A DNA stretch of 64,000 nt, taken from NCBI RefSeq assembly GCF_900114435.1, contig NZ_FOZK01000001.1, forward strand, positions 1,302,001 to 1,366,000, written 5' to 3'. Shown piece after piece: positions 28,720 to 32,872 of the stretch. The position numbers and the translations under genes were made by a program. The stretch comes from Halomicrobium zhouii. Its GTDB lineage: Archaea; Halobacteriota; Halobacteria; Halobacteriales; Haloarculaceae. Under the pieces are notes generated by a model. That model was not told the DNA's origin. It saw nothing but the letters and a program-made list of their open reading frames with translations, and ran no database searches. How positions within the stretch are numbered: the stretch's first letter is position 1; every line of letters begins with the position of its first letter.

Positions 28720-29067
28720 ATGCTACAGATCAGTGGGAGTGCCGGTGGAACGACGCTGACGGGGACGCTCTACGAGGACGGCGAGCGCGCGCCCTCGTTC
28801 CGGGGTGCACCGGAGGAGAACGCCGCGTTCGTCTGGGTCTGCGACGAGTTCTACGCGGTGGCGTCCGGGGGGACGGTCCAGCGGTTCGGCGACGAGGAAG
28901 TCCGCGTCGCCTTCGAATCGCCGATGCCCCGCGGGTTCGACGACCGGGAGCAGGCCGTCGCCGCGGCGAAGGAACACGTCCGGACGCAGTTCGCCCGGGT
29001 CGGCGTGCCAGCGGCGGACGTCGACGTCACCGTCGAGCGGGTCGAAGCGGCCGGCGGGACGGTCTGA
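28720..29067 (+). CDS. Conserved-looking protein of unknown function, 115 residues
   Basis: A soluble protein starting MLQISGSAGGTTLTGTLYED. The first 75 residues look like an antiparallel beta structure (AAFVWVCDEFYAVASGGTVQ, EEVRVAFES), the rest a helix (DREQAVAAAKEHVRTQFARV) followed by a final strand (VDVTVERVEA). No motif points to catalysis. It is upstream of the ATP-grasp gene on the same strand but 61 bases apart, and the ATP-grasp gene has its own TATA-like box, so membership in that cluster is uncertain. AAAAAG at 28671-28676 is too far for a leaderless start. Confidence 0.7.
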   Translation: MLQISGSAGGTTLTGTLYEDGERAPSFRGAPEENAAFVWVCDEFYAVASGGTVQRFGDEEVRVAFESPMPRGFDDREQAVAAAKEHVRTQFARVGVPAADVDVTVERVEAAGGTV

Positions 29068-29093
29068 GGCGCGAAACCGGTCCGCCGAAAGTT

Positions 29094-29103
29094 CTTTTTA
29101 TTT
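29094..29103 (+). promoter_or_regulatory. TATA-like box of the ATP-grasp operon
   Basis: A T-rich element, CTTTTTATTT, is centred about 30 bases before the ATG at 29129. It is the only A/T-rich run in this GC-rich stretch and resembles the element before the candidate precursor gene at 31213-31219, suggesting two separate but similar promoters. Confidence 0.55.
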
Positions 29104-29128
29104 CACGTGTGACGTGTCGGATCGATAG

Positions 29129-30097
29129 ATGGTGGTCGCGATTCTCGGGACGCGAGACGACCCACAGGTCCAGTCGGTCGGGGCGGCTCTCGACGACCGG
29201 GGCGTCGAGTGGGAACTGTGGAATTCGGGGGACTGGCCAGGAGACCACCCGGTCTCGCTGTCGGTCGCCGCCGGACCCGCCGACGCCGGCTCCGGTTCAG
29301 AATCCGCGACCGGTACATCGGGAACCTGGGCCGTCGTCGGTGAGATGGTCGACCCCGACAGGGTCACCGCAGTCTACCTCCGCCGCATCGGCCTCGACCC
29401 CCGCGGCCCGGCGTTCGAGGACGACCTGGCCGAGCGCCCGTACTCGCTGGTCAACCAGGTCCGCGAGTACCGGGGCCTGGTCACGTCGGTGCTCACCCAT
29501 CTCGAATCGCGTGGCGTCCCGGTTGTCAACCCCGTCGCGGCCCAGTCGGTCCACGGACTCAAACCGTACCAGCTCGCCGCGTTCGAGGACGCCGAAATCC
29601 CCGTCCCCGACACGCTCGCGACGAACGACCCCGACGCCGCGAGGGCGTTCGTCGAGCGGGTCGGCGACGCCGTCTACAAGCCCGTCGGCGGCGGCGGTCA
29701 CGCACGGTCGATAACGCCGGCGGACCTCGACTCGGACCATCTCGACCGCCTCGCCAACGCGCCCGTCCAGTTCCAGGAACGCGTCGCGGGCGAGAACTAC
29801 CGCCTGTTCGTCGTCGGCGGCGACGTCGTCGCGACGGGCCACATCCGGAGCGAGGAACTCGACTACCGCCTCGGCGAGCACGAGGTGGACGCGGCGATCG
29901 TCCCATCGACCGTCGAAGACGCGGCGGTCCGCGCCGCCGACGTCCTCGACTTGCACTTCGCGGGCGTCGACGTCATCGCGGACGGTGAGGGGGAGTTCGC
30001 CGTCCTCGAAGCGAACCCCTCGCCGATGTTCGCGGCCTTCGACGAGCGGGCGGGCACCGACGTCGCCGGCCACCTGGCCGCCTTCCTCGACCGATGA
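29129..30097 (+). CDS. RimK/MvdD-like ATP-grasp ligase (candidate graspetide synthetase)
   Basis: A 322-residue ATP-grasp enzyme. Its N-terminal pre-ATP-grasp part, MVVAILGTRDDPQVQSVGAA, followed by RGVEWELWNSGDWP, matches the start of MvdC/MvdD-type peptide maturases rather than of glutathione- or RimK-type ligases, as does DRVTAVYLRRIGLDP. Next come VNPVAAQSVHGLKPYQLAAF and EIPVPDTLATNDPDAARAF, the ATP-binding Lys in DAVYKPVGGGG, and the metal-binding LEANPSPMF near the C-terminus. Enzymes of this type form omega-ester or omega-amide links between Thr/Ser/Lys and Glu/Asp side chains of a ribosomal precursor. Its stop overlaps the next start by four bases (ATGA), so it is co-translated with the M50 protein. 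A role in amino-acid ligation to another protein or cofactor is the main alternative. Confidence 0.85.
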   Translation: MVVAILGTRDDPQVQSVGAALDDRGVEWELWNSGDWPGDHPVSLSVAAGPADAGSGSESATGTSGTWAVVGEMVDPDRVTAVYLRRIGLDPRGPAFEDDLAERPYSLVNQVREYRGLVTSVLTHLESRGVPVVNPVAAQSVHGLKPYQLAAFEDAEIPVPDTLATNDPDAARAFVERVGDAVYKPVGGGGHARSITPADLDSDHLDRLANAPVQFQERVAGENYRLFVVGGDVVATGHIRSEELDYRLGEHEVDAAIVPSTVEDAAVRAADVLDLHFAGVDVIADGEGEFAVLEANPSPMFAAFDERAGTDVAGHLAAFLDR

Positions 30098-31002
30098 GCG
30101 ACGACACGAGCGAGTCGTTCGGGTTCACGTGGGGCGAGACGGAGGGACTGGTGTGGCTCCGCGACGACGAGGGCAACTACAAGCGCGTCGACCGCGAGTT
30201 GCTGGTCGACCTCAGGGCTGTCGCCGCGGGCGAGCGACGGGTCACGGACCTCTCCGAGAAGAAACGCGCCGCCGTCGACCACCTCCGCGAGGCCGACTTT
30301 CTCCACCCCGGTGGCTCCGTCACCCGGCACGAGACGCCGCCCGGTGTCACGCTCTGGCCGCGGATCCTCGCGTTCGGCGTCGCGTTCGCCCTGCTCACCG
30401 CCTACGTCGGCTACCGGCTCCTGTTCACCGGCATGCCTGTCGGCACCGGGACGGCGCCGAACCTCGGCGGGGGCGTCGTCGGTGACCTGCTCCTCGCCGT
30501 CCCGGTGTTCGTCGCACTCGCGCTCGTCCACGAGGCGGGCCACTACTTCGCCGCCCGCCCGTACTTCCGCCCGTCGCTGGACCTGACCCTCCTCAACGGC
30601 GTCTTCCCCGCGTTCGTCACGCGGACCAACGACGCCTGGCGGTGCCCGCGGAGCGTCCGCGTCTGGATCAACCTCGCCGGGCCGTTCCTGGACTGTCTGC
30701 AGTGTCTCGTCCTCGCGGCGCTCTCACTGTTCGTCTTCCCCGCGTCGTACCTCCTCGCCGTCCTCCCGGTGTTCGAGTACGTCCGCCTCCTCTTCTCGCT
30801 GAACCCTTTCGTCCACGGCGACGGCTACTGGATGCTGGTCGACTGGTTCGGCGCGACGAACCTCCACACCAGGGGCGTCCGCGACCTGAAGAACCTCGAA
30901 CCGAGCGTCGGCGCCCTGTACGCGACGCTCTCGACGGCCGTCACGCTGTTCGGTCTCGCGATGATGGGATACGTCGCCGCGACCCTGGTCGGCCTCGTGT
31001 GA
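30094..31002 (+). CDS. M50-type membrane metalloprotease with RRE-like N-terminal domain
   Basis: A 302-residue protein in two parts. Residues of about 18-75 (GLVWLRDDEGNYKRVDRELL to HLREADFLHP) have the strand-strand-three-helix pattern of PqqD/RRE domains, which bind leader peptides of RiPPs. The rest is a site-2-type (M50) protease with five or six membrane helices: zinc motif HEAGH at 146-150 and third ligand in NPFVHGDGYWMLVDWFG (about 237-253), a version shared with M50 proteins found in peptide-maturation clusters, then NLHTRGVRDLKNLEP. I infer leader removal or export of a modified peptide. Start overlaps the ATP-grasp stop by four bases. The RRE assignment is by pattern only and is the less certain half. 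Confidence 0.82.
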   Translation: MSDDTSESFGFTWGETEGLVWLRDDEGNYKRVDRELLVDLRAVAAGERRVTDLSEKKRAAVDHLREADFLHPGGSVTRHETPPGVTLWPRILAFGVAFALLTAYVGYRLLFTGMPVGTGTAPNLGGGVVGDLLLAVPVFVALALVHEAGHYFAARPYFRPSLDLTLLNGVFPAFVTRTNDAWRCPRSVRVWINLAGPFLDCLQCLVLAALSLFVFPASYLLAVLPVFEYVRLLFSLNPFVHGDGYWMLVDWFGATNLHTRGVRDLKNLEPSVGALYATLSTAVTLFGLAMMGYVAATLVGLV

Positions 31003-31041
31003 GCGACCGGTGGGAGTCGCGACGGTTCGGGAATCGATACC

Positions 31042-31185
31042 TCAACAACCCGTCTCGTAACACGCCATCGTGATCGGGCCGCCGCCGCCCTCCTCGCCCA
31101 CGGCGAGTGTGGTCGGCGTCGCGATGGACGCGTTCGTCCGCTCTTCCAGGTCTTCGACGAAGTGGACTGGTTCGTCTGAACTCAT
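31042..31185 (-). CDS. 47-residue candidate RiPP precursor peptide
   Basis: ATG at 31183-31185, TGA at 31042-31044. The product begins MSSDEPVHFVEDLEERTNAS, a polar leader-like region with a Phe-Val-x-x-Leu core, continues IATPTTLAV, and ends GEEGGGGPITMACYETGC. Thr residues followed by an acidic Glu-Glu pair, then Gly-rich spacer and a short tail with Thr, Glu and two Cys, suit ester or thioester crosslinking by an ATP-grasp ligase. The gene is convergent with the M50 gene (39 bases between stops) and has a well-placed TATA box. It was not obvious among longer frames because it is short. Alternatives: a small metal-binding protein, or a chance frame; the promoter and codon use argue against chance. 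Confidence 0.65.
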   Translation of the reverse strand: MSSDEPVHFVEDLEERTNASIATPTTLAVGEEGGGGPITMACYETGC

Positions 31186-31212
31186 GTCCACCAGATATGT
31201 TCCAGCGAGAGA

Positions 31213-31219
31213 ATAAAAA
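31213..31219 (-). promoter_or_regulatory. TATA box of the 47-residue peptide gene
   Basis: On the minus strand the element reads TTTTTAT and lies 28-34 bases before the ATG at 31185, the standard distance for a leaderless haloarchaeal transcript. The surrounding 31205-31245 is unusually A/T-rich (two further A/T runs at 31229-31244). This supports the short gene as real and independently transcribed. Confidence 0.6.
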
Positions 31220-31249
31220 TGTTGCTCCTATTTCACTAAATATTAGGCC

Positions 31250-31624
31250 CTCTTCCCGGGACGACTGTTCGTCCGGGCCCCTCTCGCTGCTCGCGAATCG
31301 CTCCCCGTTCGCAATTGAGATGGTCCCTCCCTGCGGTCGCGCTTCAGTCTGCTCACGGGTCGCTCCGCTCCCGCCCGTCTTCGAGCCGGCCCCTCGCAAC
31401 GCTCGGGCCCGGCCTACCTCACGGGTCGCTCCGTTCGCCGTTCGCGATATAGCTGGGCCGCTCCCTACGGTCGCGCCCCAGCCTGCTCACGGGTCGCTCC
31501 GCTCCCCGTTCGCAATTGAGATGGTTCCTCACTCCGTTCGGAACCATCCTACTCCTCGCGTGTCGTTCACTCCGTTCACTCCCGCTCGTCTGCAAGGTGG
31601 TCTCTCACTCCGTTCGAGACCACC
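31250..31624. repeat. Array of modular hairpin repeats abutting nurA stop
   Basis: No gene fits. The tract consists of about four to five related units of roughly 90 bases with blocks such as CTCACGGGTCGCTCCGCTC and CGTTCGCAATTGAGATGG. Two perfect hairpins share one 11-base loop (TCACTCCGTTC on the plus strand) but have different 9-bp stems: GGTGGTCTC/GAGACCACC at 31596-31624 and GATGGTTCC/GGAACCATC at 31520-31548. Less perfect ones lie near 31383-31412 (GCCGGCCC arm) and 31449-31480 (GCTGGGCCGC arm). On the minus strand the first hairpin starts at the base right after the nurA TAG. It may terminate or stabilise the nurA transcript, and the array also faces the promoter of the small peptide gene. 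Confidence 0.7.
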
Positions 31625-32872
31625 CTACTCCTCGAACGCCACCCCCCACCGCTTGTCGTTGTACTCGCGCTGTTGTTCGCTGTCGAACTGCCGTTCGATC
31701 TCCTCGCGGAGCGCCTCCTTCTCGTCGCCGCCGATGCGGGCGAGTTCGTCGGCCTTGCGCACTGCCAGCGGCGGGCCGCGTTCGGCGGCGACGTCGGCGA
31801 GCACCTGGCGGGTGATGGCGTCCCGCGTCTCCTCGTCGCGAGTGATGCCGTAGGGCGATTCGACCCTGTATAGCAGGTCCTCGCGGGGGTCGTAGACGAC
31901 GAAGAAGGTGACCTCGTAGGCCTCGTCGTCGAGTTCCCGCTCGATGCCCAGTGCGTCGCCGCTGGTCGAGAGCACCTCGTCCGTCCCGACGCGCGAACGG
32001 AACCAGTTTGTGAACGTCAGCGCGTCTGTGAGACGCTCGCCCTCGTCGTCGTGACGTTCCAGGATCTGTCGGAAGAACGCGGCGTCGTTGGCCCACGGGG
32101 CGTTCCCCTGTTCTTTCCGAACGATCCGGGTGATAGCCTTCGACGTCGTCGACTTGACGAACCCGGCCAGCGCCGCGTCGCGTTCGACGAACTCCTCGAC
32201 GAGGGCGACGTAGTTCGCCACCACGTCCAGCACGTCGTCTTTGACCAGCAGTTCGGCCAGTTCCGGGTCGTGGTCGGCCCACTGGAGGAGGCCGGTGGGG
32301 TAGACGGGACCGTCGAGGATCAGCAGGTCGCCGACCAGGTCGGCCTCCTTCAGCGCGTGTTCGCTCTCGGCGAGGTAGAGCGCCAGCGCGTGGACGACGT
32401 CCTGTTCGTACCGGTCGACGCGGGGGACCTGGAGGATGCGTTCACGGGCGTACCCCTCGTCCTGCATCCGCCAGTCCTCGTCCAGCGCCGCGGCGACGTC
32501 GTTCGAGTGGGCGGTCATGACGATGGTCCGGCCGCGGTGGAGGTCCAGGTCTGAGGGCACCGACGCCATCGCGGCCTGAGCCACGTCGAGGACGATGCCG
32601 TTCTTGAACGTCGTCGGGTTGATGGTCCCCGAGTCCAGGCCGTGCTGGGTCGGGAACGGCGGTTCCTGGAGCGCGGCGTCCTGGACGTCGACCAGCATCC
32701 GGGCCTGCTCGTCGACCGGTTCGAGGACGGGCTTTCCATCAGAAAGGAGCGGGTCGAGGAGGTCGTTCCACACGGTGCCGGCGAAGTCCCGGTGGTCGGT
32801 CGGGTCCACCCCCTGCGTGATGCGGCCCGCGAGTCGCGCGATGCCGTCGACGTGGACCGGGTCCAGGGTCAT
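31625..32872 (-). CDS. nurA: DNA repair nuclease NurA
   Basis: A 415-residue nuclease that works with HerA in DNA end resection. The NurA domain is recognised by GTINPTTFKNGIVLDVAQAAM with its acidic metal ligand, RTIVMTAHSNDVAAALDEDW, LLILDGPVYPTGLLQW, the conserved FVKSTTSKAITRIVRKE, and a C-terminal YRVESPYGITRDEETRDAI ending in a helix. The ATG at 32870-32872 (MTLDPVHVDGIARLAGRI) is usual for haloarchaeal NurA. The downstream hairpin begins immediately after its TAG stop. A small conserved gene (32925-33356) is upstream on the same strand, 52 bases away, and could share its promoter. Confidence 0.92.
   Translation of the reverse strand: MTLDPVHVDGIARLAGRITQGVDPTDHRDFAGTVWNDLLDPLLSDGKPVLEPVDEQARMLVDVQDAALQEPPFPTQHGLDSGTINPTTFKNGIVLDVAQAAMASVPSDLDLHRGRTIVMTAHSNDVAAALDEDWRMQDEGYARERILQVPRVDRYEQDVVHALALYLAESEHALKEADLVGDLLILDGPVYPTGLLQWADHDPELAELLVKDDVLDVVANYVALVEEFVERDAALAGFVKSTTSKAITRIVRKEQGNAPWANDAAFFRQILERHDDEGERLTDALTFTNWFRSRVGTDEVLSTSGDALGIERELDDEAYEVTFFVVYDPREDLLYRVESPYGITRDEETRDAITRQVLADVAAERGPPLAVRKADELARIGGDEKEALREEIERQFDSEQQREYNDKRWGVAFEE

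Follow-up and report, generated by a model that had tools for sequence, protein, structure and literature searches.

Graspetides are known from bacteria. In one of them, plesiocin (group 2; precursor PsnA2, synthetase PsnB), the esters are nested within each of four repeats. Plesiocin is a potent serine protease inhibitor, and group 2 graspetide clusters frequently contain an NHLM-type peptidase transporter (PMC13097080). For several graspetides, e.g., the graspimiditides (PMC12291112), the leader-removing protease is undetermined. Other RiPPs are matured by M50 proteases, namely EpeP in the case of epipeptides and TglG/TmoG in the case of pearlins (PMC10885120). Furthermore, haloarchaea possess lanthipeptides (archalans etc.), i.e., RiPPs from the same archaeal class as the system described here, for which expression in Haloferax volcanii is established (PMC12144867); their enzymes and cross-links are unrelated to those of the present cluster.

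Here we describe a three-gene haloarchaeal cluster of Halomicrobium zhouii whose smallest gene, judging from sequence comparison, very probably encodes the precursor of a plesiocin-type graspetide. Such an archaeal plesiocin-like precursor would mean that graspetides reach beyond bacteria into a second domain of life and a salt-adapted setting. In the open-access main texts searched, no mention of graspetides from haloarchaea was found (supplementary tables may list archaeal members). The text of a 2025 survey of archaeal RiPPs (PMC12144867) contains no occurrence of 'grasp', and the main text of a 2026 survey of 43 graspetide groups contains none of 'M50' or 'metalloprotease'; the latter survey was not among the matches of a combined graspetide/archaea literature search. 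Small precursors that are left out of annotation hide such clusters, and the archaeal RiPP survey may lack graspetides because their precursors are unannotated.

The precursor gene and its likeness to plesiocin

The window, i.e., the whole stretch of 64,000 nucleotides that was analysed (contig NZ_FOZK01000001.1, positions 1,302,001 to 1,366,000), contains the following features:

29129..30097, plus strand: ATP-grasp graspetide synthetase, 322 aa, PsnB-like (from NCBIfam, PDB sequence search and predicted fold)
30094..31002, plus strand: predicted M50 (site-2-type) membrane metalloprotease, 302 aa; 4-base overlap of its start with the stop of the ATP-grasp gene
30109..30309, plus strand: residues 6-72 of the M50 protein, an N-terminal domain with a RiPP-recognition-element (RRE)-like fold (fold match 6jx3_B)
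30529..30543, plus strand: HEAGH zinc-site motif (His146, Glu147, His150), invariant; Asp243, the presumed third ligand, is also invariant
31042..31185, minus strand: putative graspetide precursor gene, 47 aa, ATG 31183-31185, TGA 31042-31044 (from the ORF, its orthologues and the PsnA2 match)
31147..31161, minus strand: leader motif FVEDL, residues 9-13, counterpart of PsnA2 FIEDL
31090..31113, minus strand: core repeat 1, TTLAVGEE (Thr25 Thr26 ... Glu31 Glu32), with predicted nested esters, pairing taken from plesiocin
31051..31074, minus strand: core repeat 2, ITMACYET, degenerate; inner pair Thr39/Glu44 kept, both outer-pair residues lost
31213..31219, minus strand: TATA-like TTTTTAT, 28-34 nt 5' of the ATG, suggesting a leaderless transcript

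The minus-strand frame from 31185 to 31042 comprises 47 codons with exactly the start and stop that a preliminary description of this DNA had given, and its translation is MSSDEPVHFVEDLEERTNASIATPTTLAVGEEGGGGPITMACYETGC. An in-frame GTG (31191) is located two codons 5' of the ATG; a start there would add MD. Pfam and NCBIfam scans of the precursor returned no family match. In line with the earlier remark that ordinary gene calling would miss so short a gene, the RefSeq records of Halocatena salina and Halorussus salilacus (both of the two related records checked) have no CDS at the position of the precursor. The pattern TTxxxxEE is present in just one of the 392 window ORFs of 30-150 aa.

When a profile of the peptide (A1, eight orthologues) was compared with 177,635 PDB sequences, the plesiocin precursor fragment PsnA2(14-38) ranked first (E 0.29), with FIEDLGKVTGGKGGPYTTLAIGEE aligned against FVEDLEERTNASIATPTTLAVGEE; a search of the PDB with the single precursor sequence gave no match, and PsnA2 was found by the profile only. 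The E value is weak taken alone because the chain is only 25 residues long, but the match carries weight, as it is the first of 177,635 and concerns the substrate of the nearest relative of the neighbouring enzyme. PsnA2 reads FIEDL-(11 residues)-TTLAIGEE and the window peptide FVEDL-(11 residues)-TTLAVGEE, seven of the eight core residues being identical. The two systems have in common the leader F-[IV]-E-D-L, the 11-residue spacing, the core TTLA[IV]GEE and the key residues of a PsnB-like synthetase. The window precursor shows both the arrangement of graspetides in general, a leader motif and a core with Thr/Ser/Lys before Asp/Glu (FVEDL; TTLAVGEE, ITMACYET), and that of group 2, a TTxxxxEE core with an adjacent Thr pair and Glu pair.

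The window precursor differs from that of plesiocin in having one full and one half-degenerate repeat instead of four. If repeat 2 is aligned to repeat 1, the inner Thr/Glu stays and both outer residues are replaced; in Halovivax (L029), the counterpart of this repeat is TTMACFET. Unlike plesiocin, the window system is archaeal, has its precursor on the opposite strand and includes an M50 protease with an RRE-like domain. In contrast to group 2 clusters with an NHLM-type transporter, the haloarchaeal loci are devoid of a conserved transporter; in a search across the loci, ABC genes were found only near a few distant ones.

The synthetase and the M50 protein

The best NCBIfam model for the ATP-grasp protein is TIGR04187 (GRASP_SAV_5884, ATP-grasp ribosomal peptide maturase), with 116.1 bits, below the curated cut-off of 350. 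Its closest solved structure by sequence is PsnB (plesiocin macrocyclase; 7drm), with an E value of 2.3e-49 compared to 2.1e-13 for the next family. The AlphaFold2 model (mean pLDDT 84.6) matches the fold of PsnB with Z 29, followed by MdnC, AMdnB and CdnC (Z 24-26) and by RimK and LysX (Z ~24). With PsnB closest by both sequence and fold and other macrocyclases next, the enzyme falls into the graspetide-synthetase lineage. Residues identical in PsnB and in all aligned haloarchaeal ATP-grasps include, among others, Lys145, Lys184, Arg225, Asp281, Glu294 and Asn296. We take R225 to be the counterpart of PsnB R213, provided that the crystal chain has a 20-residue tag; R213 is important in substrate recognition. 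The microviridin and chryseoviridin systems (MdnC, MdnB, CdnC) share the ATP-grasp fold (Z 24-26) and leader-guided ester formation, whereas their leader motif PFFARFL and their core are both absent from the window sequences.

The M50 protein carries the HExxH motif and the distal Asp expected of the transmembrane-helix zinc ligands of an M50/site-2 protease. In its predicted model (mean pLDDT 84.8), the C-terminal part matches RseP and SpoIVFB (Z ~10), and the fold also matches MjS2P. The best NCBIfam model is NF041824 (daptide intramembrane metalloprotease; 44.9 bits, E 8e-12, cut-off 300), and NF058609 matches with E 1e-6; both scores are below the curated cut-offs. In the daptide and epipeptide (YydH/LiaK, EpeP) systems an intramembrane HExxH protease is likewise paired with a small peptide, but the partner enzyme of the window protein is an ATP-grasp. 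A phylum-wide M50 search gave weak matches in other archaea, which have no ATP-grasp in the short flanking stretch examined.

Residues 6-72 of the M50 model match 6jx3_B, the B1 protein that binds the leader of a lasso peptide (Z 7.0; 66 residues aligned at 2.1 A), so that this domain appears to be RRE-like and is a candidate leader binder. At the sequence level, support for an RRE is weak: a PqqD match was obtained for one of 14 M50 members (E 0.18). Note that the matches of this domain in a PDB sequence search were designed repeat proteins and were discarded as spurious. Since M50 proteases mature epipeptides and pearlins, removal of the leader would be a reasonable role for the protein, which, with its RRE-like domain, is a candidate for the so far missing enzyme of leader removal in graspetides.

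Distribution, promoter and genomic site

The haloarchaeal loci that have a close ATP-grasp, eight in number (the window, L030, L031, L029 and L032-L035; L028 is the same locus as L030), all carry an intact precursor. The case that the preliminary description had named as refuting, a disrupted frame next to a retained ATP-grasp gene, occurs at none of them. The distribution is sparse: a whole-genome search with the peptide gave matches in three of 146 family members, 18 of 392 genomes sampled from the order have ATP-grasp relatives (E<=1e-30), and 13 of 391 sampled from the class have M50 relatives. A six-frame scan of the fetched loci with the leader pattern revealed at most one match per locus, always near the ATP-grasp/M50 genes; the L043 precursor is an extra match obtained with a looser leader pattern. 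With the motifs tried, no precursor was found at four more distant ATP-grasp loci (L036, L037, L046, L049). In a search of plasmids, the precursor was detected only on the Halocatena plasmid, a second match being due to chance. The conserved unit over the loci consists of the ATP-grasp, the M50 protein and the precursor.

The eight close precursors have HF[VI]E[DE]LEER-NA and TT-A-GE in common, with F9, E11, L13, T25, T26, A28, G30 and E31, among others, being invariant; F9, E11 and L13 are conserved in nearly all haloarchaeal precursors. Conservation of the tail Thr, Glu and Cys had been proposed as a check. It holds for Thr25, Thr26 and Glu31, but the Cys residues are variable and are absent in L031. 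Synonymous change exceeds non-synonymous change in the pairs with enough divergence (pS 0.34 vs pN 0.027 in L034/L035, the best-diverged close pair); dN/dS for the window and G063 is unusable, as this pair differs at only 4 codons. On these grounds the 47-codon ORF is a real gene and a RiPP precursor, and the original suggestion of a hidden precursor, made up of leader and core-like tail and encoded opposite to the maturation genes, is upheld by the orthologues, the PsnB-like ATP-grasp and the PsnA2 match.

In 17 of 18 loci the precursor is opposite to the ATP-grasp strand, the exception being L031 (Halocatena salina plasmid). The convergent placement proposed earlier is true of the window, where the stops of the M50 and precursor genes are 39 bases apart. 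It is not universal, some precursors being divergent and one co-directional.

The TTTTTAT described 28-34 nt before the precursor ATG is indeed there on the minus strand, and suggests that the precursor mRNA is leaderless and transcribed from its own TATA-like promoter. In 16 of the 18 precursor loci, a match of at least 5/6 to TTTAWA lies 24-48 nt upstream (-24 to -48), compared to a mean of 7.7 loci with the same score in composition-preserving shuffles of the upstream DNA and 0.5 at random positions; the observed mean score was reached by 1 in 1000 shuffles. As both the pattern and the range were chosen by us, a TATA box is supported, not proven. A scan for sigma-70 promoters, the wrong promoter type for archaea, and for intrinsic terminators found none. 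Imperfect direct repeats (40-68 nt, 60-90% alike, e.g., CTCACGGGTCGCTCCG) are located at 31299-31634, between the precursor promoter and NurA.

The window region 29067-31625 was compared with the corresponding site in same-genus genomes (L088, L089 and L090-L092), which is empty in two and occupied in three. In G064 and G061, the flanking DUF7113 and NurA genes are directly adjacent (57 and 11 bases between matches), and in G059, G060 and G062 the site contains an unrelated gene of ~2.2 kb (739-aa frame, by eye a predicted S9-like peptidase). As the site is empty or otherwise occupied in these relatives, the cluster gives the impression of a cassette that only some species carry.

Proposed maturation, rival readings and the Halorussus-type branch

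According to the pathway we propose, the TATA box of the precursor gene would drive a leaderless mRNA, convergent with the enzyme operon, and the FVEDL leader of the peptide would dock on the ATP-grasp synthetase. The enzyme would activate Glu side chains with ATP and esterify them with Thr, forming Thr26-Glu31 and Thr25-Glu32 in TTLAVGEE; in the degenerate repeat 2, Thr39-Glu44 would probably be formed as well. We thus predict a nested pair of esters for repeat 1 and, as repeat 2 keeps the inner Thr/Glu pair only, perhaps a single ester there. Two or three dehydrations per precursor would result, so that a sharply defined mass loss of 36 or 54 Da is predicted for this compact, expressible cluster; a Cys42-Cys47 disulfide is also possible. 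The M50 protein would bind the leader via its N-terminal RRE-like domain and cut it from the core at the membrane, and the product would be exported. By analogy with plesiocin, the target would be a serine protease, possibly a protease of the halolysin type that belongs either to competitors or to the producer itself. Thus, the cluster probably makes an inhibitor of serine proteases that contains two, or perhaps three, Thr-Glu esters.

Several other readings have to be weighed against this one. The ORF is very short, and its counterpart is without annotation in two RefSeq records, as would be expected of a chance frame, with the real precursor of the cluster elsewhere; its conservation at every close locus beside the enzymes, the purifying selection and the independent PsnA2 match contradict this, and we consider it hardly credible. 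It is also very improbable that the ATP-grasp adds an amino acid to a carrier peptide, or catalyses some other ligation on it, as in pearlins, where the M50 protein frees the C-terminal amino acid. An M50 protein is indeed the releasing enzyme in some pearlin clusters (PMC10885120), and several Halorussus-type cores have no acidic side chains, but for the window ATP-grasp macrocyclases rank before RimK-type ligases, and the window core has the exact TTxxxxEE pattern.

A reading that deserves more attention, although we regard it as unlikely, is that the leader-guided peptide is a pheromone-like signal released by the M50 protein and not an inhibitor, the ring motif serving for stability or shape only. 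The leader is conserved and the cores vary strongly between lineages, as expected of strain-specific signals; peptide release by intramembrane M50 proteases is known from other systems (PMC10885120), and the loci share no conserved gene for a toxin-like or immunity protein. However, the TT-A-GE core is nearly invariant over several genera of the window clade, unlike fast-diverging pheromones, and nearly equals the loop of PsnA2, the precursor of a known inhibitor.

The plesiocin-type reading applies to the window branch. In the Halorussus-type loci (L038-L042, L044, L045, L047, L048) and in L043, the precursors have retained the leader as F-[IV]-E (in L043 as Y-I-E), mostly with E-R-N or similar, but their cores are unrelated (PITWFGG, GVMGNVYFGA, YYTGGCIAYC, RVTCPLSC, HTSGPSDDK), several having no acidic side chain after the leader. 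The following Halorussus-type precursors have cores without Asp/Glu near the C-terminus (e.g., TPITWFGG, TCPLSC):

L038, 6389-6490: precursor
L040, 8335-8234: precursor
L041, 9330-9220: precursor
L042, 6060-6152: precursor
L048, 7625-7723: precursor

Formation of side-chain esters does not fit these precursors because no Asp/Glu is available in the C-terminal region, and the C-terminal carboxylate may serve as the acid. The unrooted ATP-grasp tree separates the window branch together with PsnB from the Halorussus-type branch (support 1.0). It is conceivable, if doubtful, that all these loci represent a distinct archaeal RiPP system whose defining features are the shared F-[IV]-E leader and a site-2 protease fused to an RRE. 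The branch of the window, Halocatena, Halovivax and their relatives would then form plesiocin-type esters, and in the Halorussus branch the same enzymes, acting on cores devoid of acidic side chains, would activate the C-terminal carboxylate, giving a macrolactone, a thiolactone or a head-to-tail ring.

Two tandem ATP-grasp genes each are present in L044 (7002-8990), L045 (7015-8980) and L047 (7688-9666), where the precursor ends with HTSGPSDDK, HTSAPHDDK or MYTSDPTWDSQ and is encoded on the M50 strand. L064 (4738-8632) contains a further ATP-grasp/M50 pair; an ABC exporter is encoded immediately upstream of it, and a small peptide, MSEDKHVVDELEDRSAEDRDSTLVRSTLVVEAL, is a candidate for the precursor.
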